A DNA stretch of 55,275 bases, from contig JAAYSV010000055.1 of NCBI GenBank assembly GCA_012518215.1, positions 1 through 55,275 on the forward strand, read 5' to 3'. Made by a program: the position numbers and the translations under genes. How positions within the stretch are numbered: the first letter of the stretch is position 1; the number at the start of each line of letters is the position of its first letter. Below, in pieces: positions 20,848 through 34,158 of this stretch. A model generated the notes under the pieces. The model searched no databases. It worked only from the letters and a program-made list of their open reading frames with translations, and had not been told where the DNA came from. The DNA comes from Bacillota bacterium. GTDB lineage: Bacteria; Bacillota; Dethiobacteria; DTU022; PWGO01.

Positions 20848-22251
20848 CTATTCCGGATCGGATTGTTCGAGTGAAGGAAGAAACGCTTCGCGGGCGGCAG
20901 CCAGCTGTTTTTTCAAAGCCGCCTCGGCCACACCGCCCCTGATCGAACGGGCTTCGGTGCTCATGTACGGATCAAGAAGTTTCCCCATTCTGTCAGCATC
21001 GAGAGAGGGATGGAAGCGGTGCAGTTCATCGGTGGTCAATTCACCCAGGGTTCTGCCATGCTCCCGGCTGTAAGCGACCATCCTGCCCACCAGATGGTGG
21101 GAGTCCCGGAACGGAACCCCGCGGGTAACGAGGTAATCGGCAATATCCGTTGCCATGGCCGACACATCCCGGGCCGATTCTTCCATTCTTGCCGTGTTGA
21201 AACGGGCGGTGCGCAGCATCTCCCGGGTCAGCAAGAGGGCCGGTTTCAAGGTGTCGATGGCATCGAATACTCCTTCCTTGTCCTCCTGCATATCCCGGTT
21301 GTAGCTGAGGGGCAATCCCTTCATCGTCGTCAACAATCCGATGAGGCTGCCAAAAACACGGCCGGTTTTTCCTCTTGCCAGCTCGGCGATGTCCGGGTTC
21401 TTCTTCTGGGGCATGAGGCTGCTCCCGGTGGCGTAAGCATCGTCCATCTCCATGAATCCAAATTCGGCCGACGACCAGAGTACCAGTTCCTCGCCGATAC
21501 GGCTCAGGTGCATCATGCATATCGAGGCAAATGAAAGGAATTCAAGCAGGTAATCGCGGTCGCTGACGGCATCGATGCTGTTCTCGTAAAGTTCCGCAAA
21601 TCCGAGGCGTGCAGCCACCCGTTCCCGGTCAAGCGGGAAACCGCTTCCGGCCAGGGCACCGGCTCCCAGGGGCATGATGTCCGCCCGCCGGTAAGCCCCG
21701 CGCAGCCGCTCACGGTCCCGTTGAAACATCCAGAAATAGGACAGAAGGTGATGGGCGAAACGCACCGGCTGGGCTCGCTGCAGGTGGGTGTATCCCGGCA
21801 TCAACGTCCCGATGTGGACGGCGGCCAGATCGCAGATCGTCTGCTGCAATTCATTCAGGAGTCGATCGATAGACCCTGTTTCTTTCTTGATGTAAAGGTG
21901 CATATCCAGCGCCACCTGGTCGTTGCGGCTTCTCCCCGTGTGCAATTTGCCCCCCGTCTCCCCGATTTTCTCGCAGAGGCGGTTCTCGATGTACATGTGA
22001 ATATCCTCGTAAGAATGATCCGCTTCAAATTCTCCCGCTTCAATCTCCGCCCTGATCTCTTTCAGCCCGCCGGAGATGGCGGCCATCTCCTCCGCGGTGA
22101 TGATCCCCGCTGCGGCGAGGGCATCGACATGTGCCAGGCTGCCCTCGATATCCACCTCCGCCAATCGGCAGTCGAAGTGGATGGAGGCGGAAAACCTCTC
22201 CACTTCGGGATCGGTCTGGCGGTCAAAACGACCGCCCCACGGTTTTTTCAT
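20848..22251 (-). CDS. argH: Argininosuccinate lyase
   Basis: This 467-residue enzyme of the fumarase/aspartase superfamily cleaves argininosuccinate to arginine and fumarate, the last step of arginine synthesis. Characteristic sequence includes WGGRFDRQTDPEVERFSAS at the start, TGRSRNDQVALDMHLY, the histidine-containing GYTHLQRAQPVRFAHHLL and the superfamily signature GSSLMPQKKNPDIAELARGK with the catalytic flexible-loop serines. GGAGG lies eight bases before the ATG. It is the last gene of the T-box-controlled arg operon, 33 bases after argG. Length and motifs are standard. Confidence 0.97.
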   Translation of the reverse strand: MKKPWGGRFDRQTDPEVERFSASIHFDCRLAEVDIEGSLAHVDALAAAGIITAEEMAAISGGLKEIRAEIEAGEFEADHSYEDIHMYIENRLCEKIGETGGKLHTGRSRNDQVALDMHLYIKKETGSIDRLLNELQQTICDLAAVHIGTLMPGYTHLQRAQPVRFAHHLLSYFWMFQRDRERLRGAYRRADIMPLGAGALAGSGFPLDRERVAARLGFAELYENSIDAVSDRDYLLEFLSFASICMMHLSRIGEELVLWSSAEFGFMEMDDAYATGSSLMPQKKNPDIAELARGKTGRVFGSLIGLLTTMKGLPLSYNRDMQEDKEGVFDAIDTLKPALLLTREMLRTARFNTARMEESARDVSAMATDIADYLVTRGVPFRDSHHLVGRMVAYSREHGRTLGELTTDELHRFHPSLDADRMGKLLDPYMSTEARSIRGGVAEAALKKQLAAAREAFLPSLEQSDPE

Positions 22252-22284: not shown

Positions 22285-23493
22285 TCATTCTTCTTTCTCT
22301 CTATGCATACCCCATATCTTCAATGGCAGGCCGAAAAGGTTGATAAAACCCTCGGCATCTTTCTGGTCGTAGAGCGAATCTTCTTCGAATGTGGCCAGCT
22401 CGGGGTTGTAGAGGGTATGGGGCGACTTCCTGCCCACGACCATGATATTCCCCTTGTAGAGTTTCAGCTTGACGGTGCCGCTTACCCGTTCCTGGGTAAA
22501 ATTGAAGAAAGCATCCAGGGCTTCCCGCAAGGGGCTGTACCATTGTCCGTAGTAGATCAGTTCGGCATATTTCAGGGCCAGATGTTCCTTGAAATGCAAT
22601 GTGTCACGGTCGATGCAGAGATGCTCCAGTTCCCGGTGGGCAAAGGTCAGAAGGGTGCCGGCCGGGGTCTCGTAGACACCGCGCGACTTCATCCCCACCA
22701 GCCTGTTTTCCACCAGGTCGGCCCGTCCGATCCCATGCCTGCCCGCCAGTTCGTTGAGCCCCTCGATCATCGCCACCGGCGTCTCCCGCCGACCGTTCAC
22801 GGAAACCGGGATGCCTTTTTCCCACTCGATCTCCACTGTACACGGTTCATCGGGAGCCTCCTGCGGTGAGCAGGTGAGCAGGAACATCTCCCCGTCCGGT
22901 TCGTTCCAGGGGTCTTCCAGCACTCCCCCCTCGAAGCTGAGGTGCCAGAGGTTGCGATCCATGCTGTAAGGTTTGGCAGCAGTCACGGGCACGGGTATTT
23001 CATGCGCAGCAGCGTAAGCCAGGGCATCGCTGCGGGAACGGATCGTCCATTCCCTCCAGGGAGCGATGATCTTCAGATGCGGGGCCAGCGCCTTCAGGGT
23101 CAGCTCGAAGCGCACCTGGTCATTCCCCTTGCCGGTGGCCCCGTGAGCAACGGCTGTCGCCCCCACACGTCTGGCCACTTCCGCAAGTTTCCTGGCGATA
23201 ACCGGCCGCGCGATGGCCGTTCCCAGAAGATATTTCCCCTCGTAGACAGCTCCCGATCTGAGCATCGGGTATATGAAATCGGTTACAAATTCTTCACGGA
23301 CATCTTCAATGTATGCTTCGGCGGCACCGGTACGCAGGGCTTTCTCCACCAATCCCTCCAGTTCGGCAGAGCCCTGGCCGACATCGACGGCAACGGCAAC
23401 GGCATCATAACCGTAATGCTCTTCGAGCCATTTCAAAATTACCGAGGTGTCAAGGCCTCCCGAATAGGCAACAACCACCTTCTCACGCTTCAT
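22285..23493 (-). CDS. argG: Argininosuccinate synthase
   Basis: This 402-residue ATP-dependent ligase joins citrulline and aspartate to argininosuccinate. The N-terminal PP-loop [11 protein letters not shown] is intact, as are [15 protein letters not shown] and [15 protein letters not shown], typical of ArgG. An AAGGAG sequence precedes the ATG by about nine bases. The gene follows argF by 134 bases, the longest gap inside the arg operon, in which I see no terminator. It precedes argH by 33 bases. Confidence 0.97.
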
Positions 23494-23627: not shown

Positions 23628-24578
23628 TTACATGATGAGCGCCATCAATGCCTTCTGAACATGTAAACGATTCTCGGCCTGATCGAAGACCACCGATGAA
23701 GATGATTCCAGCACCTCGGCGGTGATCTCCTCGCCACGGTTGGCCGGCAGGCAGTGCATGACGATAGCCCCGGGTTCGGCCCTGTCAAGGAGGGCCCGGT
23801 CAAGCCGGTAGTGCTGCAATCTTCTCCGGCGTTCTTCCTGCTCGGTTTCCCGCCCCATGCTGGTCCAGACATCGGTGTAGAGAACCCCGGCCCCGCGGAC
23901 TGCTTCCTGCGGATTGTCCGTAACCTCTATCTCTCCCCCCGTTTTCTCGCCCTCTTCACGCGCCCACGACAGTATTTCCGGCAACGGCGTGTAACCCTCC
24001 GGCGCACAGATCGTTATCTGCATACCCATCCTGCTGCAAGCAACCAGGAGGGAATGAGCCACGTTGCTGCCCCCGTCGCCCATGAAAACAATCTTGCCCG
24101 CCCTCAGGGCACCCCTGTGTTCGATGATGGTCATCAGGTCGGCCAGTGCCTGGCAAGGATGGAAAAGATCGGTCAGCCCGTTGATAACCGGAACGGACGC
24201 CCACTCTGCCAGTTCCACAACTTCACCGTGGTCAAAAGTACGGATCATGATCCCGTCAAGATAGCGGGAGAGGGTGTGAGCTGTATCCCGGATGGGTTCC
24301 CCCCGCCCCATCTGCAGATCCTGGGTGCTCAGGAAAAGGGCAAAACCCCCGAGCTGGAACATGCCCACCTCGAATGACACACGTGTCCTGGTTGATGGTT
24401 TCTGGAAGACCATACCCAGCGTTCTGCCTTCAAGAAAGCGGTGAGGGATCCCGTTCTTTCGCTCATTTTTCAGATCTGCAGCCAGGGAGAGTATCCCGCC
24501 GATCTCCGCCGGGGAGAAATCCTGCAGGCTGAGAAAATCCCGGCCCTGCAACTGCACCCGATATTCATGATAAGACAT
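23628..24578 (-). CDS. argF: Ornithine carbamoyltransferase
   Basis: This 316-residue enzyme condenses carbamoyl phosphate and ornithine to citrulline. Binding motifs are complete: STRTR for carbamoyl phosphate, HPCQALADL, and HCLPANRGEE with the catalytic cysteine. The start was set at 24578, nine bases after GGAGGAG; the first ATG in the frame is directly abutted to that site and is less likely. It follows argD by 18 bases. No carAB genes are in the window, so carbamoyl phosphate must come from genes elsewhere. Confidence 0.96.
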   Translation of the reverse strand: MSYHEYRVQLQGRDFLSLQDFSPAEIGGILSLAADLKNERKNGIPHRFLEGRTLGMVFQKPSTRTRVSFEVGMFQLGGFALFLSTQDLQMGRGEPIRDTAHTLSRYLDGIMIRTFDHGEVVELAEWASVPVINGLTDLFHPCQALADLMTIIEHRGALRAGKIVFMGDGGSNVAHSLLVACSRMGMQITICAPEGYTPLPEILSWAREEGEKTGGEIEVTDNPQEAVRGAGVLYTDVWTSMGRETEQEERRRRLQHYRLDRALLDRAEPGAIVMHCLPANRGEEITAEVLESSSSVVFDQAENRLHVQKALMALIM

Positions 24579-24596
24579 CCTTTCCATCTCCTCCCG

Positions 24597-25811
24597 TCAC
24601 TTTATGGCCGCAAGGGCACCGTTGAAGATATCCATGAACAGTGCCAGGTCTTCCTCGTCGATGATCAGGGGGGGAAGCAGGCGGATGATCGATTCCCCGA
24701 TAGCATTGATGAGCAGCCCCTTCTCCTGGCACTCCCTCTGGATGCGCACCGCCCCGGGAACGGTGAGTTCCATGGCCAACATCAGGCCCTTCCCCCTTGT
24801 TTCCGCGATCAGATCGGGATTTTTCTTCTTGAGCCCGTGCAGGTATTCCTGCAAGAGCCCCCCTATCCGGGTAACTTCCTGCAAAAAGTTTTTCTTCAGC
24901 ATAGTCTGCAAGACGGCCACGGCCACCCGGCAAGCCAGAGGATTGCCGCCAAAAGTGGAGGCATGATCGCCGGGCCCCAGCCCCTGCGCCAGATCTTCGC
25001 GCACGATCATGGCCCCGATGGGAACACCTCCGGCAAGGGCCTTCGCCGCGGTCATGATATCCGGTTCCACCCCGTAACCTTCATAAGCCCAGAGAGAACC
25101 GGTACGCCCCATGCCGCATTGCACTTCATCGAAGATCAGCAAAATTCCTTCATTGTCACACAGTTTGCGCAACTTGCCCAGGAAATCGGCATCCGCCGGA
25201 TATACACCCGCCTCGCCCTGGATCGGCTCGATCATTATTGCGCAGGTGTCTTTATCTACCAGTTGCTCGAACGAGGCGATGTCATTGAACCGGGCATACA
25301 TGAAGCCGCCGGGCAGCGGATGAAAACCTTCATGATAGCGATCCTGGGCCGTGGCAGTGACCGTGGCCAGGGTGCGCCCGTGGAAAGAACGCTCCGCGGT
25401 GATGATTTTGTATTTGTGGTCGCCGCACTTTTTCTTGCTGTACTTTCGTGCCAGCTTGATGGCCGCCTCGTTGGCTTCCGCCCCGCTGTTGGCCAGGAAA
25501 ACGCGGTCGCCAAAAGAATGTTTTGCCAGCAAGGCTGCCAGTTCAACCTGGGGCTCGCTGTAGTAGAGATTGGAAGTGTGGATCAGTTTTCCGGCCTGAT
25601 CCTGCAAGGCCTTGACGATGGCCGGATGAGCATGACCCAACGAATTGACGGCCAGCCCGCTGACAAAATCAAGGTATTTGCGGCCGGATTCGTCCCATAC
25701 ATAGCTTCCGCGACCCCTGGTAATGAGGATATTTCGTTCCGGATCCCGCCGATATGTATTGATCATATGCCGGGCTTCCAGATCCTTGATCGCAGACAAT
25801 TTGTTTTTCAT
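24597..25811 (-). CDS. argD: Acetylornithine aminotransferase
   Basis: This 404-residue class III PLP aminotransferase converts N-acetylglutamate 5-semialdehyde to N-acetylornithine using glutamate. Motifs include ANSGAEANEAAIKLARKYS for PLP phosphate binding, FHGRTLATVTAT, LIFDEVQCGMGRTG and the lysine region MTAAKALAGGVPIGAM, where K forms the Schiff base. The ATG overlaps the argB stop (TGATG); a GTG one codon earlier is equally well spaced from AGGA and may be used. In related organisms the same enzyme can also act on succinyl-diaminopimelate. Confidence 0.95.
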   Translation of the reverse strand: MKNKLSAIKDLEARHMINTYRRDPERNILITRGRGSYVWDESGRKYLDFVSGLAVNSLGHAHPAIVKALQDQAGKLIHTSNLYYSEPQVELAALLAKHSFGDRVFLANSGAEANEAAIKLARKYSKKKCGDHKYKIITAERSFHGRTLATVTATAQDRYHEGFHPLPGGFMYARFNDIASFEQLVDKDTCAIMIEPIQGEAGVYPADADFLGKLRKLCDNEGILLIFDEVQCGMGRTGSLWAYEGYGVEPDIMTAAKALAGGVPIGAMIVREDLAQGLGPGDHASTFGGNPLACRVAVAVLQTMLKKNFLQEVTRIGGLLQEYLHGLKKKNPDLIAETRGKGLMLAMELTVPGAVRIQRECQEKGLLINAIGESIIRLLPPLIIDEEDLALFMDIFNGALAAIK

Positions 25812-26740
25812 CACAATTCTTCATCCTTTCCGTGCTTTTCTCCTACCACCATGGTGCCGATCCCTTCATCGGTAAAGATCTCCAGCAAAAGGGAGTGATG
25901 CGTGCGGCCATCGATGATATGAGTGCGCAAAACACCGTTCTCCAGTGCCCTCAAGCATGCCTGAACCTTGGGGATCATCCCCTCGTTGATACGGCCGTCG
26001 GCGATCATCTGTGTGGCGGACTTCCTGTCAAGAATGGAGATAAGGTTTTGGTGTTCCCCGTTGGGGTCAGCCATGATCCCCTCGATGTTGGTCAACAGTA
26101 TGAGTTTTTCCGCTTTCAATGCCGACGCCAGTTCGCCGGCGGCGCAATCAGCATTTATATTCAATCCTTCGTGCCTTTTGCTATCGACCCCGATGGAGGA
26201 GACCACGGGGATATAGTCCTGGCGGATGAGAGCATCAATGATATCTGCATTCACAGTGCTGATCTCCCCGACCAGGCCCAGGTCGACGAGCTCCTCTTCT
26301 CCGTTCACGGTGATCTTCTGCGGTGGCAGGCGGTCGGCAACAAACATGTTGGCATCCCGGCCGCTGAGACCGACGGCTTTGCCACCATGGCTGTTGATCA
26401 GGCTGACGATCTCGCGGTTCACCTTGCCGCTGAGCACCATCTCGGCCAGTTCCATCGTCTCCGCGTCGGTGACCCGCAGCCCCCCTGCAAAGACGGATTC
26501 CTTGTTTATTTTCCTGCTCCACCTGTTTATTTCCTTCCCCCCGCCATGCACCAGGACGGGGTTGATCCCGATGTATTTCAGCAGGATGATATCCACGGCC
26601 ACCTTCTCTTTCAGTTCTTCATTGATCATGGCATGGCCGCCGTACTTGATCACAAAGGTTTTTCCCGCAAATTTACGGATGTAAGGCAGCGACTCCACAA
26701 GCACCTCGGCTTTGGCAATGAGTTTCTCCACAGGCACCAT
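25811..26740 (-). CDS. argB: Acetylglutamate kinase
   Basis: This 309-residue amino acid kinase phosphorylates N-acetylglutamate. It has the KYGGHAM nucleotide-binding start, VHGGGKEINRW, the substrate-binding region VGLSGRDANMF and LLTNIEGIMADP. The N-terminal helix that precedes the fold (LIAKAEVLVESLPYIRKF) is the type found in hexameric, arginine-inhibited enzymes, so feedback inhibition by arginine is likely though inferred. The start at 26740 follows GGAGGG; 19 further codons upstream have no such site. The stop overlaps the argD start. Confidence 0.96.
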   Translation of the reverse strand: MVPVEKLIAKAEVLVESLPYIRKFAGKTFVIKYGGHAMINEELKEKVAVDIILLKYIGINPVLVHGGGKEINRWSRKINKESVFAGGLRVTDAETMELAEMVLSGKVNREIVSLINSHGGKAVGLSGRDANMFVADRLPPQKITVNGEEELVDLGLVGEISTVNADIIDALIRQDYIPVVSSIGVDSKRHEGLNINADCAAGELASALKAEKLILLTNIEGIMADPNGEHQNLISILDRKSATQMIADGRINEGMIPKVQACLRALENGVLRTHIIDGRTHHSLLLEIFTDEGIGTMVVGEKHGKDEEL

Positions 26741-26810
26741 CTTTATTCCATCCCTCCGTTTTATCTTGCATCCCATTCGGCAATCCTTCCCCGACATGAT
26801 TCCACATCAT

Positions 26811-28040
26811 TCAGGTTCGGTAACAGCTGTTTATCTTGACGTACTCGTGGCTGAGATCGTTGCCCCAGGTGCGGATCTCCTCCGAACCTGCATGAAGGTC
26901 TATGGTCATGGCGATCTTTTTTCTTCGGAGATACCCGATCAGTTCCTTCTCGTCAAAATCCGCCTGTTGCCCGGCGGCAGCGACCTTGAAAGGCCCGATA
27001 TACAGTTCCGCCTCCCGCGGATTGAAATCAACTCCCGCATAGCCCATCGCCGCCAGGATCCTGCCCCAGTTGGCATCTTCCCCGAAAAAGGCGGTCTTGA
27101 CCAGAAGGGAATTGAGCACGGCCCGGGCAAGGGCACGCGCATTTTCAAATGTGGCCGCCCCTTTCACCGTGAGATCCAGCACCTTGGTAACCCCCTCGCC
27201 ATCGGCGGCGATGAGATAGGAGAGGGAGCGGCAGGTCTGCAGCAATGACTCGCGGAAAAGATCATATTCCGGGCCTTCGGTTTCAATATTGATGCCCGCA
27301 GCGCCGTTGGCCAGAAGCAGAACCATATCGTTGGTAGAGGTATCTCCATCAACCGAAACCAGGTTGAAAGTGCGCTCCACTGCCTCCAGCAAGGCTTTCT
27401 GCAGCAGGCCGCCCGGCATGGAGATGTCGGTGGTGATAAAAGCAAGCATGGTCGCCATGTCGGGGCAGATCATCCCCGAACCCTTGGCCATCCCTCCGAC
27501 AACCGCCTTTTTTGCACCGATCTGCAGGTGCAGAGCCATTTTCTTCTCCACCCTGTCCGTGGTCATTATGGCCCGGGCAGCATCATCCCCGCCCCGGGTG
27601 GTGGCATTCAATTTCTCAACCGCATGCCCGATCCCCTCCCGGATCCGCTCCATGGGCAGCCGCTGGCCGATAACCCCCGTGGAGGCAACGAGCACTGCAT
27701 CTGCAGGTATGGAAAGTTCCGCAGCAGCGAGGGCCGCCATCTCCTCGGCATCGCGGTAACCGGCATCGCCCACACAGGCGTTGGCATTGCCGCTGTTTAC
27801 AACCACGGCACTGATGGGATTACCGATCCGGCTCCGGCTGATCTCCACCGGTGCCGCCCTGAAAAGATTGCGGGTAAAGGTACCGGCTGCCGCCGCCGGC
27901 TTCTCCGAAAATATGAGGGCCAGATCCTTGCTGGAACCGTTGTCTTTCTTCAGGCCGCAGTAAATACCGGAAGCCTTGAATCCCCGGGGAGAGGTGATCC
28001 CCCCGTCAGGTATTTTTTTGATTTTGAAGTCTGCGTTCAT
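26811..28040 (-). CDS. argJ: Bifunctional ornithine acetyltransferase / N-acetylglutamate synthase
   Basis: This 409-residue ArgJ transfers the acetyl group from N-acetylornithine to glutamate, closing the acetyl cycle, and may also make N-acetylglutamate from acetyl-CoA. The autocleavage region MAKGSGMICPDMATMLAF is present, with self-processing expected between A and T of MATML to give alpha and beta chains. The VSVDGDTSTNDM block is also typical. A GAGGAG ribosome binding site precedes the ATG. No argA or argE is needed in this pathway, which agrees with their absence from the operon. Confidence 0.96.
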   Translation of the reverse strand: MNADFKIKKIPDGGITSPRGFKASGIYCGLKKDNGSSKDLALIFSEKPAAAAGTFTRNLFRAAPVEISRSRIGNPISAVVVNSGNANACVGDAGYRDAEEMAALAAAELSIPADAVLVASTGVIGQRLPMERIREGIGHAVEKLNATTRGGDDAARAIMTTDRVEKKMALHLQIGAKKAVVGGMAKGSGMICPDMATMLAFITTDISMPGGLLQKALLEAVERTFNLVSVDGDTSTNDMVLLLANGAAGINIETEGPEYDLFRESLLQTCRSLSYLIAADGEGVTKVLDLTVKGAATFENARALARAVLNSLLVKTAFFGEDANWGRILAAMGYAGVDFNPREAELYIGPFKVAAAGQQADFDEKELIGYLRRKKIAMTIDLHAGSEEIRTWGNDLSHEYVKINSCYRT

Positions 28041-28084: not shown

Positions 28085-29191
28085 CTAGGGGGTCAATGCC
28101 GTGTTCCGCAAACCGCTTTCCTCGGGCCAGCCGCACATGATATTCATGTTCTGCACCGCCTGCCCGGAGGCCCCCTTGACCAGGTTATCGATGGCTGAAA
28201 CCAGGATCAGTTTCCCCGTGCGGCTGTCCTTGCACAGGGAGAGAAAACAGAAATTGCTGCCCTGCACCCAGCGGGTTTCGGGCAACAGGGGCGGCTCCAT
28301 CACCTTCACGAACGGTTCCCCGCGGTAAAATGAACGGTAGCCGTCAAGGAAATTCCCCGGATCGTCTTCCCCGCGCGGGGTAACGTAGATGGTTGACAGG
28401 ATCCCCCTGCTCATCGGGGCCAGATGGGGGGTAAACAGGATCTGTACCGGCCCGCGCCCATCCGGAGAGGCACCCCCGTCAATATCTTTCCCGTTCAAAC
28501 GTACAGAGGCCAGTTCCTGCTCTATCTCGGGCGTATGCTGGTGAGTGGCTATGCGGTAAGCCTTGAAGTTCTCGTTGCACTCGGGATAATGAAATGGCTG
28601 GCGGGGAGACCTTCCCGCTCCGGACACACCCGATTTGGCATCGATGATAATATCATCCGTGCCGATCAGATCAGCGGCCATCAACGGGGCCAGTGCCAGG
28701 ATGATCCCGGTGGGATAACAACCGGGGTTGGCCACCAGCCTCGCCGCGGCAATTTCTTTCCGGTAAAGCTCCGGCATCCCGTAAACGGCCTCTTCCAGAA
28801 ACTCGGGACAGGGATGCGTTCGCTCATACCATTGTGGATAGAGACTCGCGTCCTTGAGCCTGAAATCGGCGCTGAGATCGACAACGCGGAAATCGCGTTC
28901 CAGCAGGGCAGGTACCACTTCCATGGATTTGCCATGTGGCAGGGCACAGAAGACCAGATCCGTTTCGGCCGGAATATCATCGACCTTCAATCCCGAGCAG
29001 GTCAGTTTCGCCGCCCCCGACAGATGGGGGTGAACAGCATCAAGCTTCTGCCCTTTGAATCTCTCCGAACTGACAAAGACAACTTCCGCGCCGGGGTGAG
29101 CAAGGAGCAGGCGCATGAGCTCCATACCCGTGTAACCGGTTACCCCCAGCACCGCTATTTTTTTCTTCCCGATCATTTTTTCTTCAGCCAT
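28085..29191 (-). CDS. argC: N-acetyl-gamma-glutamyl-phosphate reductase
   Basis: This 368-residue NADPH-dependent reductase converts N-acetylglutamyl phosphate to the semialdehyde. It shows the Rossmann start IAVLGVTGYTGMELMRLL, the catalytic cysteine in VANPGCYPTGIILALAPL and the histidine-containing HQHTPEIEQ and FTPHLAPMSRGIL segments. The ATG at 29191 is preceded by GGAGG at six bases; the upstream 23 codons of open frame belong to the T-box terminator region. It is the first gene of the arg operon and directly follows the T-box leader. Confidence 0.96.
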   Translation of the reverse strand: MAEEKMIGKKKIAVLGVTGYTGMELMRLLLAHPGAEVVFVSSERFKGQKLDAVHPHLSGAAKLTCSGLKVDDIPAETDLVFCALPHGKSMEVVPALLERDFRVVDLSADFRLKDASLYPQWYERTHPCPEFLEEAVYGMPELYRKEIAAARLVANPGCYPTGIILALAPLMAADLIGTDDIIIDAKSGVSGAGRSPRQPFHYPECNENFKAYRIATHQHTPEIEQELASVRLNGKDIDGGASPDGRGPVQILFTPHLAPMSRGILSTIYVTPRGEDDPGNFLDGYRSFYRGEPFVKVMEPPLLPETRWVQGSNFCFLSLCKDSRTGKLILVSAIDNLVKGASGQAVQNMNIMCGWPEESGLRNTALTP

Positions 29192-29205: not shown

Positions 29206-29520
29206 AATAAAAATAAAGCCTCTCTCCTGCAAAGGACGAGAGACTTGCTCGCGGTACCACCTTTATTGGCCCGGGAGAAGATGACTTCCCCCGTGACCCC
29301 CTCGATTTTACCCGGCCACAGATAGCGGCGGATAAAACTTGATAACGGCAAGCGCCGACGTCTGCCTACACACCGTGATGGCTTCGGCAGAGTTACTCGG
29401 GGGTGCGCTTCGACATCCGGACAGGCACCGGGCTTCCACCCTCCCCGGCTCGCTTGGCCCGTCTGGGGATGCTACTCTCCCCGTCATTGATGTTTTTTTA
29501 TTATTTTAAAATGTAAAGAT
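29206..29520 (-). promoter_or_regulatory. T-box leader with arginine (CGC) specifier controlling the arg operon
   Basis: This tRNA-sensing riboregulator lies directly upstream of argC. Stem I begins with GGGGAGAGTAGC, and its 3' side carries GAAG, then CGC at 29405-29407, then ACC, the position where T-boxes hold the specifier codon. CGC is an arginine codon, matching the operon. The T-box sequence AAAGGTGGTACCGCGAG is at about 29248-29264, with the TGGT bulge (29256-29259) that would pair with the ACCA end of uncharged tRNA-Arg. The competing terminator is a stem of CTCTC/GAGAG plus TCC/GGA with one bulged base (29220-29242), followed by a T-rich tract. AAAGG can pair with CCTTT to form the antiterminator. 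Uncharged tRNA-Arg should therefore turn the operon on. Confidence 0.92.
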
Positions 29521-29527
29521 GTAAAAC

Positions 29528-29556
29528 ATTTTATCACTTGTGTCTGCAGATTGCAA
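29528..29556 (-). promoter_or_regulatory. Promoter of the T-box/arg operon
   Basis: TTGCAA (29551-29556) and TAAAAT (29528-29533) on the minus strand are 17 bases apart, close to the sigma-A consensus. Transcription would start near 29521, at the 5' end of the T-box leader. Confidence 0.7.
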
Positions 29557-29608: not shown

Positions 29609-29661
29609 AGGGGATTCTTCGGTCGCCCTGAAAAGCAGGGCTCCCTCTGAATGACAGGTAG
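29609..29661 (+). repeat. Dispersed repeat copy R1
   Basis: The copy reads GGGGATTCTTCGGTCGCCCT and then a GCCCTGAAAAGCAGGGC hairpin, ending in TCTGAATGACAGGTAG. The same unit occurs in the opposite orientation at 33860 and 34069, and its ends are shared with R2 and R3. It sits just upstream of the arg promoter. Confidence 0.85.
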
Positions 29662-29697
29662 ACCACTTTTATCAGGCAGGTAGTAAGCGGTGTTCAA

Positions 29698-29843
29698 GGA
29701 GGGTATTCTTCGGTCGCCTGCGGCCCCTCTAAATTTCCACGCGTTACCCGCACCACGATAAACGGAAATTATTTCTTCCGGGTGCATATTTTTGCTGGAG
29801 TTCATTTATTTCCATAGCAATAACAGACAGGAATGACAGGTAG
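29698..29843 (+). repeat. Long dispersed repeat copy R2 (left arm of an inverted pair)
   Basis: About 146 bases that match 33690-33823 in reverse orientation along nearly the whole length. They share the ends TATTCTTCGGTCGCCTGC and ATGACAGGTAG and an internal block containing CGCGTTACCCGCACC and GGAGTTCATTTATTTCCATA. I judge identity at well over 80% by eye, with one small insertion near the right end. No transposase is encoded. The remainder of 29557-29992 shows no gene. Confidence 0.85.
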
Positions 29844-29992: not shown

Positions 29993-31534
29993 CTAAAGCG
30001 GCATGTTTCCATGCTTGCGCAGGGGGCGGCTCTCCCTTTTCGAGCGCAGCGCCTCGAGGGAACGGAGAAGATGCAAGCGTGTCTGCCGCGGTTCGATCAC
30101 ATCATCAACCCAGCCTTTCCCCGCCGCTATGAAGGGATTGGCAAATTTCCGGCGGTATTCCTCGATGAACCGCTGCCTTTCTTCCGCGGGGTTTGCAGCC
30201 GCCTCTATTTCCTTGCGGTTGATGATATTCACTGCCCCCTCGGGTCCCATGACCGCTATCTCCGCGGTGGGCCAGGCCAGGGATATATCAGAACCCAGAG
30301 ACCTTGAGTCCATGGCCAGGTAGGCCCCGCCGTATGCCTTGCGCAGGATGACTGTGATCCGGGGCACGGTGGCTTCCGCGTAGGAATACAGTATCTTGGC
30401 CCCATGGCGGATGACGCCACCCCATTCCTGTTCCACCCCCGGCAGGTAGCCGGGCACATCGACGAAGGTTATCAGGGGGATGTTGAAACAATCACAGAAA
30501 CGAACAAAACGGGATATCTTGTCCGAGGAATTGATGTCCAGGCAACCGGCCATCGCCAGGGGCTGGTTGGCAACCAGGCCCACCGACTGCCCCCCCATGC
30601 GGGCAAAACCGACCACCGCGTTGCGGGCATAATCCTGGTGGACCTCGAGGAATCTGCTCCCATCGGTGATCCTTCCGATAACCTCGCGGATGTCATATCC
30701 CTTGTTGACGTCCCCGGGGACGAGGGTATCCAGTTCTGCAGAATCGAGCTGCGGTTCCTCCGGTTCACACCGGGGAGGATCTTCGATATTGTTGGACGGC
30801 AGGTAGCTCAGCAAATTCCTTACTTTCTGAAGGCATTCATCTTCTGTCCCGGCAGAGAAATGCGCCACTCCGCTGGTTTGGTTGTGGGTCTCCGCCCCGC
30901 CGAGCTCCTCCTGGCTGACTTCTTCACCGGTCACCGCCTTGACCACCTGCGGGCCGGTGATGAACATGTAACTTGTTTTCTCGGCCATGAAAACAAAATC
31001 GGTAAGAGCGGGAGAATAGACAGCCCCGCCGGCGCAAGGCCCCAGAATGACCGATATCTGGGGCACGACCCCGGAATAGATCGTGTTGCGGTAAAAAATT
31101 TCTCCATATCCGTTGAGAGCATGGACGCCTTCCTGGATACGCGCTCCGCCGGAATCGTTGAGCCCGATGACGGGAGTGCCGTTTTTGGCAGCCAGATCAA
31201 GCACGCGGCATATCTTGGCAGCATGCACCTCGCCCAGGGAACCGCCGGCCACCGTGAAATCCTGAGCAAAGATATAGACCGTACGCCCATCGATGGTGCC
31301 GTAACCGGTCACCACCCCCTCGCCGGGATTCTTTATCTCCTGCAAGCTTGCATCGGTAAGGCCTCCCTGGGAGAAGACCCCCAGTTCCACGAAACTGTTT
31401 TCATCAAGGATTCTATCAAGACGCTCACGAGCCGTTTTTTTACCTTTTTCATGCTGATTGCGGCGCCTTTCATCACCGCCGCCCATGATCGTTATTTTAC
31501 GACGTTTTTCTAGTTGTGATAGCTTGTTATCCAT
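29993..31534 (-). CDS. mmdA: Acyl-CoA carboxylase carboxyltransferase / methylmalonyl-CoA decarboxylase alpha subunit
   Basis: This 513-residue biotin-dependent carboxyltransferase is of the PccB/MmdA family, moving a carboxyl group between an acyl-CoA (methylmalonyl-CoA or propionyl-CoA) and biotin. It has two crotonase-like halves with the oxyanion-forming glycine pairs: GGSLGEVHAAKI and LNDSGGARIQEGV in the first, and VDVPGYLPGVEQEWGG and RKAYGGAYLAM in the second. It follows sucC and sucD in the same direction, which fits a succinate-propionate route. No biotin carrier or membrane subunit is adjacent, so decarboxylase, transcarboxylase and carboxylase cannot be separated. The ATG at 31534 has GGAGG about 14 bases upstream; a GTG five codons earlier is an alternative. 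Confidence 0.85.
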   Translation of the reverse strand: MDNKLSQLEKRRKITIMGGGDERRRNQHEKGKKTARERLDRILDENSFVELGVFSQGGLTDASLQEIKNPGEGVVTGYGTIDGRTVYIFAQDFTVAGGSLGEVHAAKICRVLDLAAKNGTPVIGLNDSGGARIQEGVHALNGYGEIFYRNTIYSGVVPQISVILGPCAGGAVYSPALTDFVFMAEKTSYMFITGPQVVKAVTGEEVSQEELGGAETHNQTSGVAHFSAGTEDECLQKVRNLLSYLPSNNIEDPPRCEPEEPQLDSAELDTLVPGDVNKGYDIREVIGRITDGSRFLEVHQDYARNAVVGFARMGGQSVGLVANQPLAMAGCLDINSSDKISRFVRFCDCFNIPLITFVDVPGYLPGVEQEWGGVIRHGAKILYSYAEATVPRITVILRKAYGGAYLAMDSRSLGSDISLAWPTAEIAVMGPEGAVNIINRKEIEAAANPAEERQRFIEEYRRKFANPFIAAGKGWVDDVIEPRQTRLHLLRSLEALRSKRESRPLRKHGNMPL

Positions 31535-31586
31535 TTTTACAGCTGCCACCTCCTGGGCTAATGAGAATATTATACCACATTTACGC

Positions 31587-32468
31587 TCATTTTCCGTTCA
31601 GGCCCATTTCTTTCCTGACCAGGGCCGGAATCTCTGTAAAAAAACGGGCCACCTTCACCCCGCAGGAAGAAAGAGCTTCAACTTTCCCCTCGTAACTGCC
31701 GCGCCCTCTCTCGATAATGGCGCCGGCATGCCCCATCCTTCTGCCCGGGGGCGCCGTTCTCCCGGCGATGAAGGAGATAACCGGAAAAGCAATATGATCG
31801 CGTACAAAAAAAGCCGCCTCCTCTTCCGCACTGCCGCCAATTTCCCCGATCATGACCACCACTTCGGTCTGTGGATCCGATGCGAACTCCTTCAAAACAT
31901 CCGTGAAGCTCAGTCCCACCACCCGATCTCCTCCAAGGCCGACCACCGTGCTCGTTCCCAACCCATCGTCTTTCAGGCGGGCGGCAACCTCGTAGCAGAG
32001 AGTCCCGCTGCGGGAGATGATCCCCACCGGGCCGGGGGTGAAAATATGGTTGGGCATGATGCCGATCTTGCTTTTACCCGCGGAGACCAGGCCAAATGTG
32101 TTGGGGCCGACAACCATGGTCCCCTTTCTGTCGGCACAGGCCAGGATTTCCATGGCGTCGTGCACGGGGATATGCTCCGTTATCACCACCATGATCCCGA
32201 TACCGGCCTCCAATGCCTCCATGGCCGCATCCAGGGTGTAGGGTGCCGGTGTGAACAGAATCGTTGCCCCGGCCTCGTGTTCCCTCAGGGCAGAGGCGAC
32301 GGTATTGTAAACGGGTACCCCTTCCACGCGCCGCCCCCCCTTGCCGGGGGTGACCCCCGCCACCACCCTGGTGCCATATTCCAACATCCGCGCTGTATGA
32401 AAAGAACCCTGGTTGCCGGTAATGCCCTGAATCAGAACCGGCGTTTCCTCGTCGATGATGATGGCCAT
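31587..32468 (-). CDS. sucD: Succinyl-CoA synthetase alpha subunit (ADP-forming type)
   Basis: This 293-residue protein is the CoA-binding alpha subunit that, with SucC, interconverts succinyl-CoA and succinate with ATP or GTP formation. It shows QGITGNQGSFHTARMLEYGT for CoA binding, PGKGGRRVEGVPVYN, and GRRMGHAGAI, which contains the phosphorylated active-site histidine. It starts three bases after the sucC stop and ends 52 bases before mmdA. The close linkage with MmdA favours a role in propionate/succinate metabolism. The malate-CoA ligase alternative cannot be excluded from sequence alone. Confidence 0.92.
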   Translation of the reverse strand: MAIIIDEETPVLIQGITGNQGSFHTARMLEYGTRVVAGVTPGKGGRRVEGVPVYNTVASALREHEAGATILFTPAPYTLDAAMEALEAGIGIMVVITEHIPVHDAMEILACADRKGTMVVGPNTFGLVSAGKSKIGIMPNHIFTPGPVGIISRSGTLCYEVAARLKDDGLGTSTVVGLGGDRVVGLSFTDVLKEFASDPQTEVVVMIGEIGGSAEEEAAFFVRDHIAFPVISFIAGRTAPPGRRMGHAGAIIERGRGSYEGKVEALSSCGVKVARFFTEIPALVRKEMGLNGK

Positions 32469-32471
32469 CGC

Positions 32472-33590
32472 TTATTTCCCCGCTTTCGGCGAAGCTTCCA
32501 CCGCCCGGTGGACCGCCTCCTCCATGGAATGATAAACCTCCACAGCATGCCCGTGGAGGATCTCGCGCCCACGTTCCTCGTTCGTTCCCACCAGCCGGAC
32601 GAAGCATGGAACGTCAATTTTGCCGGATTCTTTCAGTTCTGCCAGGGCACGGGCGACATCGTCACACCGCGTGATCCCCCCGAAAATATTGATGAGGATG
32701 ACTTCGGGATCGGCAGCCAGCAGTATCTCCAGGGCCTGCAAGGTCTTCTCCATACCGGCCCCTCCCCCCAGATCTATAAAATTGGCCGGCGAGCCTCCGA
32801 AATGCTGCACCATATCCACGGTGGCCATGGTGATGCCCGCTCCGTTGGCCATGACGGCGATGTCCCCTCCCAGAGAAAGATAAACAATGCCCTTCCGGTA
32901 TGCCCTCCCCTCCAGCCCCGTCCGTTCTTCAACCCGGGGAAGGTCGGGTTGGCGGTAAAGCGCATCGTCATCGATGGTGACCTTCGCATCGATGGCGATC
33001 AGTTCCGACCCGCAGAGGGCCAGCGGATTTATCTCGACCAGCTCGGCATCAATCTCCCTGAACATGGTCAGAAGACGATCCAGAACAAGGCTGAATTGCC
33101 CGGCCACTTTTTCCGGCAAACCGATAGCAGAAACGGCCTCCCTGCCCATATTGGCATGGTAGCCGATGGCCAGATCAACCGGCAACCGGATCATCTTCCC
33201 GGGCGGAAAGTCTTCCACATCGATACCGCCATGCGCCGAAGCAAGAACGAGGGGAGAGCGCCTGCGCTGATCGATGGTGATTGCCAGGTAGAATTCATGG
33301 TCAATTTCTTTTCTTTCAGCCACCAGGAGCCGTTTCACTCTCTCACCGTTGAGCTCCAACCCCAGGAGGCGTTCCGCTTCGTTCCCTGCTTCCGGCGGAT
33401 CGGTGGCAAAGGCAATGCCTCCACCGCGGCCCCTCTTCCCCGACAGAACCTGCGCCTTCAGCACCACCTCCCCTCCCAGATTCCGGCTGGCCTCGATGGC
33501 TTCGGCAGGCGTTTCGACAAGCCGGCCGGATTGAATGGGGATGCCGTAACGGGCCAGGAGTTCCTTGCCCATGTATTCGTACAGATTCAT
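32472..33590 (-). CDS. sucC: Succinyl-CoA synthetase beta subunit
   Basis: This 372-residue ATP-grasp subunit provides the nucleotide and succinate sites. It opens with MNLYEYMGKELLARYGIPIQ and contains KAQVLSGKRGRGGGI, the glycine-rich loop, LVEINPLAL and DIAVMANGAGITMATVD, with GGSPANFIDLGGGA near the substrate site. The start at 33590 follows TGGAGA at nine bases; the 31 upstream codons in the same frame overlap the promoter region and a dispersed repeat and were excluded. It is the first gene of the sucC-sucD-mmdA unit. Confidence 0.94.
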   Translation of the reverse strand: MNLYEYMGKELLARYGIPIQSGRLVETPAEAIEASRNLGGEVVLKAQVLSGKRGRGGGIAFATDPPEAGNEAERLLGLELNGERVKRLLVAERKEIDHEFYLAITIDQRRRSPLVLASAHGGIDVEDFPPGKMIRLPVDLAIGYHANMGREAVSAIGLPEKVAGQFSLVLDRLLTMFREIDAELVEINPLALCGSELIAIDAKVTIDDDALYRQPDLPRVEERTGLEGRAYRKGIVYLSLGGDIAVMANGAGITMATVDMVQHFGGSPANFIDLGGGAGMEKTLQALEILLAADPEVILINIFGGITRCDDVARALAELKESGKIDVPCFVRLVGTNEERGREILHGHAVEVYHSMEEAVHRAVEASPKAGK

Positions 33591-33630
33591 CTGTTTATTC
33601 TCTCCAGTGTATGGACAATCTTGTAATATT

Positions 33631-33636
33631 ATTATA
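33631..33636 (-). promoter_or_regulatory. Probable -10 box of the sucC-sucD-mmdA operon
   Basis: A perfect TATAAT on the minus strand lies about 40 bases before the sucC start. A TTGCTT sequence upstream is only 14 bases away, shorter than ideal, so the -35 element is uncertain. Confidence 0.45.
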
Positions 33637-33689
33637 CAACTGTGCATAAAAAGCAAAGATGGGAACCCCGGAGCCCCTGACATTGTGGT

Positions 33690-33823
33690 CTACCTGTCAT
33701 TGCTATGGAAATAAATGAACTCCAGCATAAATATGCACCCGGAAGGAATAGCTTCCGTTTTTCGAGGTGCGGGTAACGCGTGAAAATTCAGAGGGAACTG
33801 CAGGCGACCGAAGAATCCCCTCC
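33690..33823 (-). repeat. Long dispersed repeat copy R3 (right arm of an inverted pair)
   Basis: This is an inverted copy of 29698-29843. Shared blocks include GCTATGGAAATAAATGAACT, TATGCACCCGGAAG, GTGCGGGTAACGCGTG and CAGGCGACCGAAGAAT. Compared with R2 it lacks about a dozen bases near the ATGACAGGTAG end. Together R2 and R3 bracket sucC-sucD-mmdA. Confidence 0.85.
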
Positions 33824-33859
33824 TCACACCCCCCGCTGCAAGGGAAAAAGGAAGTACAA

Positions 33860-33949
33860 CCTGTCATTCTGAGGGAGCCCTGCTTTTCAGGGCGACCGAA
33901 GAATCCCCTCCTCGTACACACCTTACTTTCGGCATAAACTGGTTCCTAG
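33860..33949 (-). repeat. Dispersed repeat copy R4
   Basis: CCTGTCATTCTGAGGGA is followed by a perfect hairpin GCCCTG-CTTTT-CAGGGC and GACCGAAGAATCCCCTCCTC. The copy extends with TACACACC and CATAAACTGGTTCCT, which R5 also has. It is opposite in orientation to R1. The stretch between R4 and R5 shows no gene. Confidence 0.85.
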
Positions 33950-34068
33950 CTTTTATCTTTTCCTCGTACCGATATGTTGGCGTATGCGACGTAGAGTGAA
34001 TGGTTGCCATAGCCGGTGAAGGCGAGGAAGCGAAACGGGACTGCCGACGTGATGTGGACAGTGCATTG

Positions 34069-34158
34069 CCTGTCCATTCTGAGAGAGCCCTGTTCTTTAG
34101 GGCGACCGAAGAATCCCCTCCTCATACACACCCCACCACTGCCATAAGCTGGTTCCTG
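34069..34158 (-). repeat. Dispersed repeat copy R5
   Basis: This matches R4 along about 90 bases with scattered changes. The central hairpin has changed to GCCCT-GTTCTTT-AGGGC, so five pairs are kept while the loop differs, suggesting the fold matters. It ends with CATACACACC and CATAAGCTGGTTCCTG. The remainder of 34159-34380 contains a partial TTCTGAATGACAACG echo of the unit end but no gene. Confidence 0.82.

Follow-up and report, generated by a model that had tools for sequence, protein, structure and literature searches.

The arginine pathway is regulated by ArgR/AhrC in many Bacillota. Here we have asked what controls the arginine operon of a bacterium of the Dethiobacteria (Bacillota; assembly GCA_012518215.1), where the DNA upstream of argC has the appearance of a T-box leader, and which tRNA such a leader would sense. 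The window, i.e., the whole stretch of DNA analyzed, is the contig JAAYSV010000055.1 of 55,275 nucleotides. We consider that the leader is very probably a canonical T-box riboswitch of class I, acting on transcription and specific for arginine, with a probability of about 0.93.

Anatomy of the arg leader

A search with the covariance model RF00230 gave a match on the minus strand at window positions 29496-29229, with a score of 94.1 bits (E = 2.2e-19). The margin over the gathering score of 93 is thin, and the alignment spans the full length of the model (positions 1-219) without truncation. The matched segment (29229..29496) comprises Stem I, Stem II/IIA-B, Stem III and the antiterminator. 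The 5′ motif of Stem I is GGGGAGAGTA. The T-box motif AAAGGTGGTACCGCG, located at 29250..29264 from the alignment and the sequence, forms the 5′ arm of the antiterminator and includes the bulge UGGU (TGGT in the DNA; 29259-29256), the predicted partner of the NCCA end of the tRNA. The 3′ arm is the sequence CCUUU at 29231..29235, which pairs with AAAGG; it was placed by the same alignment and is nearly invariant in the leaders of the class. The alignment also reveals a long insertion after Stem II, and the sequence is G+C-rich.

Single-sequence folding of the antiterminator and of Stem I did not return the T-box structure, and we have therefore relied upon the covariance model and upon comparison with relatives. 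For the antiterminator this is unsurprising, as its stability should depend on tRNA.

A candidate sigma-70-type promoter, TTGCAA-17-TAAAAT with TG before the -10, is found at 29528..29556 (minus strand). It matches the consensus at 9 of 12 positions, and the call is a consensus match rather than a mapped start, with 0.3 such matches expected per shuffled region. At the other end of the leader is an intrinsic terminator (29206..29245, minus strand), identified from the sequence, by folding and by covariation in relatives. Its hairpin, with the stem AGUCUCUC/GAGAGGCU at 29245-29217, has a minimum free energy of -16.8 kcal/mol (z = -1.8) and is followed by an interrupted T-rich tract (TTATTTTTATT). 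This terminator was not listed by a simple consensus terminator scan. It overlaps the antiterminator; the segment CUCGUCC is common to both hairpins, which are thus mutually exclusive, as expected of a class I T-box. The initial annotation had read a promoter, a Stem I motif, a specifier, a T-box with a TGGT bulge and a competing terminator from the DNA. We find all of these, on the minus strand, and the covariance model that it proposed as a check recognizes the leader above the gathering score.

The leader is followed on the same strand by argC (28085..29191, with its ATG start at 29191; TIGR01850, 428.6 bits), argJ (26811..28040; NF003802, 479.8 bits), argB (25811..26797; TIGR00761, 251.5 bits), argD (24597..25814; TIGR00707, 511.9 bits), argF, encoding ornithine carbamoyltransferase (23628..24587; TIGR00658, 414.2 bits), argG (22285..23493; NF001770, 614.0 bits) and argH (20848..22251; TIGR00838, 613.9 bits), in that order. 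For each gene at least one NCBIfam model scores above its cut-off, in agreement with the complete argCJBDFGH operon described earlier. A serA gene (phosphoglycerate dehydrogenase; 20638-19010, minus strand) lies 210 bases past argH on the same strand.

Specifier frame, conservation and ArgR

The specifier stretch of the leader is GAAGCGCACC, in which the arginine codon CGC (29405..29407, minus strand) lies between GAAG and ACC. The placement follows from the alignment, and its frame can be compared with that of the other T-boxes in the genome. There are eight in total, and in the RF00230 alignments the specifier of each agrees with the gene that it precedes: CUC for leuA, AUC for ileS, CUC for leuS, UAC for aroF-tyrA, UGC for cysE-cysS, UGG for trpB, UUC for aroF-pheA and CGC for argC. 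These genes were recognized by eye from their translations, with the exception of argC, which was assigned by NCBIfam. The Tyr (UAC), Cys (UGC) and Phe (UUC) T-boxes share the GAAG-NNN spacing of the arg leader.

Could the codon instead be GCG, one base upstream, such that the leader senses tRNA-Ala(CGC)? GAA-GCG-CACC can be read in the spacing of the Leu and Trp types (GAA-CUC, GAA-UGG), and the genome contains a tRNA-Ala(CGC) with A73 that would match UGGU by Watson-Crick pairing. However, the downstream genes make arginine only, and the Tyr, Cys and Phe T-boxes preceded by GAAG place their codon as in GAAG-CGC. Furthermore, three relatives (G021, G029 and G037) have the sequence GAAACGG, which gives CGG (Arg) in the chosen frame and ACG (Thr) one base upstream. 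The GAAG-NNN T-boxes and the GAAACGG relatives support the CGC frame, and together with the gene content they lead us to reject an alanine specifier, which we regard as highly improbable. The CGC codon named in the initial annotation is thus borne out, and it corresponds to the amino acid made by the argCJBDFGH operon.

An Arg T-box was found upstream of argC in all 40 loci examined across the class, 30 from the order and 10 more from the class. The specifier is CGC in 37 of these leaders and CGG in 3, and the bulge is UGGU in all 40. In the argC leaders of relatives, columns 15-18/76-79 of Stem I exhibit two-sided changes that keep the pairing, and the terminator helix likewise undergoes compensatory two-sided changes. 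These data bear on the idea that the T-box is vestigial or degraded, leaving the operon constitutive or under another regulator. The RF00230 score near the gathering threshold would be in keeping with decay, as would the G73 of the tRNA discussed below, which gives no Watson-Crick pair with the bulge. Yet the low score is also consistent with a sequence rich in G+C and with the long insertion that follows Stem II, while the specifier, the T-box and the bulge are undamaged and shared by 40/40 argC leaders, with helices that carry compensatory changes. On the strength of this conservation we reject a vestigial leader, the chance of which is very small.

No hit to ArgR (PF01316) was obtained in the genome itself, a 97%-complete assembly, in answer to the question raised by the initial annotation of whether an argR gene is present. 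As a control, the PF01316 search was positive in 9 of 14 reference genomes. Neither 60 relatives nor 63 genomes of the class, two sets that overlap, gave an ArgR match above the cut-off. An argR gene might have been missed in an assembly of this completeness, and, weighed against the searches of relatives and class, we think this unlikely. ArgR as a co-regulator was dropped, no argR gene having been found. ArgR/AhrC binds DNA and senses arginine in its free form, whereas the arg T-box, which acts on the same pathway, would sense tRNA; across the class, an Arg T-box stands at every argC locus examined and ArgR was not found.

The leader resembles the Arg-specific members of RF00230 in TBDB (PMC7778990) in its full-length match, CGC specifier, UGGN bulge, terminator and antiterminator, and biosynthesis operon. 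We find no essential difference from these T-boxes, apart from a U·G73 discriminator wobble in this genome. CGC is the commonest kind of Arg specifier in TBDB, at 52% (PMC7778990). The control of this operon by tRNA-Arg had been described as a clear regulatory choice. As a mark of something unusual this was overstated, given the uniformity of the argC loci in the class and the frequency of CGC in TBDB. The type of arg T-box is already known, and the leader by itself is an ordinary regulator. A literature search on Arg T-boxes, most subscription journals being outside its reach, returned nothing directly on point.

The cognate tRNA-Arg and the proposed switch

Transfer RNA genes were collected by RF00005 search and by ARAGORN on the retrieved loci, leaving out ten matches with long variable arms. 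The tRNA-Arg genes found in the genome have the anticodons ACG, TCT, CCT and CCG. No tRNA-Arg with a GCG anticodon was among the tRNA genes found, and of those present only ACG can read CGC, once A34 has been deaminated to inosine (ICG). The genome encodes a TadA-like deaminase (PF14437, 151 bits). The TadA-like gene (G000:C29:33035-33472; locus L266) lies about 1.6 kb from the gene for tRNA-Arg(ACG) (G000:C29:35051-35127; locus L075).

The TGGT bulge had led to the prediction that the discriminator base of the tRNA-Arg is A. This fails in the present genome, because the sole tRNA-Arg found that reads CGC is ACG, and tRNA-Arg(ACG) carries G73. UGGU is therefore complementary to the GCCA end only if a U·G wobble is allowed. 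Such a pair has precedent; U:G73 is reported for 46% of Trp T-boxes, and wobble is allowed in the TBDB model (PMC7778990). Among the tRNA-Arg(ACG) genes of the order, A73 is present in 21 of 30 and G73 in 9 of 30, with the U of the bulge unchanged. With I34·C in place of G34-C at the specifier, plus the discriminator wobble, the fit in this genome is less than ideal. In the Cys T-box before cysE-cysS (G000:C20:79967-80206; locus L005), the bulge UGGG faces U73 of tRNA-Cys, again as a wobble rather than a Watson-Crick pair.

We envisage the following switch for the arginine T-box. RNA polymerase would start at approximately position 29520 on the minus strand, giving a leader of roughly 325 nt. 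The partner of the CGC specifier in Stem I would be the anticodon of tRNA-Arg(ICG). If that tRNA is uncharged, its GCCA end could then pair with the UGGU bulge, through three Watson-Crick pairs and the U·G wobble at G73, and this pairing would stabilize the AAAGG/CCUUU antiterminator such that argCJBDFGH is transcribed. Charging of the tRNA with arginine would block this pairing, the terminator would form and the operon would be off. In this way the T-box would fill the role that ArgR has elsewhere. We observed the anatomy, the frame, the conservation with covariation, the gene content and the tRNA repertoire, and found no ArgR; from these we infer where transcription starts, that tRNA binds, that inosine 34 is needed and how the operon responds.

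CGC is unreadable by unmodified ACG, no GCG tRNA was found, and position 73 drifts between A and G. These observations lead us to suggest, tentatively, that the Arg T-box of the class might respond only to inosine-modified tRNA-Arg. If this were true, arginine synthesis would depend on deamination by TadA. The three genomes with a CGG specifier have a tRNA-Arg(CCG) with A73, and these would then represent a natural switch to a tRNA without need for inosine. The natural CGC/CGG and A73/G73 variants could be used to probe the strictness of T-box pairing.

A tRNA gene within the leuS T-box, and a dispersed repeat

Outside the window, the leuS T-box with its CUC specifier (L003:1501-1806, equivalent to G000:C15:36373-36678, plus strand; 108 bits) contains a complete gene for tRNA-Ala(GGC) at L003:1685-1759, detected by RF00005 (67.7 bits) and also by ARAGORN. 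We saw no other tRNA-Ala(GGC) gene in the assembly. In relatives, tRNA-Ala(GGC) lies upstream of leuS in 26 of 30 loci (L105-L134), and in 24 of these it closely precedes a T-box motif. Such a tRNA within a T-box, occurring in several phyla, is more unusual than the arg leader and merits a study of its own. We found no published description of it in the literature searched, which left most subscription journals outside.

Contigs of public genomes were scanned for a pattern in which the 3′ end of any tRNA, with CCA, lies 5-30 nt before a T-box motif, giving at least 120 matches (L135-L254). Among the matches listed, tRNA-Ala(GGC) lies just before the T-box motif in 106 of 120, and G3:U70 and A73 are present in all 106, consistent with a functional tRNA-Ala. 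The phylum spread, read from record titles that include some metagenome-assembled genomes whose binning was taken as given, covers Bacillota, Chloroflexota (Ktedonobacter, Dictyobacter), Coprothermobacterota, Caldisericota, Atribacteria, Armatimonadota and Actinobacteria among the matches listed. By tblastn, most of the 120 matches listed have LeuS-like sequence no more than 1.5 kb downstream; in several loci of Desulfotomaculia type a gene for a putative acyl-CoA synthetase comes first, with leuS next where the contig reaches. For the 106 among the matches listed, a script called the specifier as CUC, from its sequence context, in 84 and gave no call in the other 22. An Rfam scan of 16 loci gave a T-box spanning the tRNA at gathering in 8, and none at gathering in the other 8.

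From inspection of its flanks and from a pairing script, the nested tRNA-Ala(GGC) appears to sit in the loop of Stem III, and its flanks can pair as Stem III. For the matches listed, the best helix of 5 nt flanking the tRNA has 5/5 pairs in 75 loci and 4/5 in 28, figures to which chance pairing contributes, since the script takes the best of many registers. Processing of the nested tRNA by RNase P would be expected to cut the leuS riboswitch. The leader would be transcribed regardless of leuS, in which case tRNA-Ala(GGC) could be supplied even by a terminated leader.

Within the window, the arg locus has a dispersed repeat, GATTCTTCGGTCGCC, in its vicinity. This has 120 matches in the genome with at most one mismatch, compared with 0 for a reversed control, and many copies lie near contig ends. 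Copies at window positions 29613-29729 (plus strand) and 33791-34115 (minus strand) are inverted with respect to each other and flank a block at 29993-33683 that contains mmdA.
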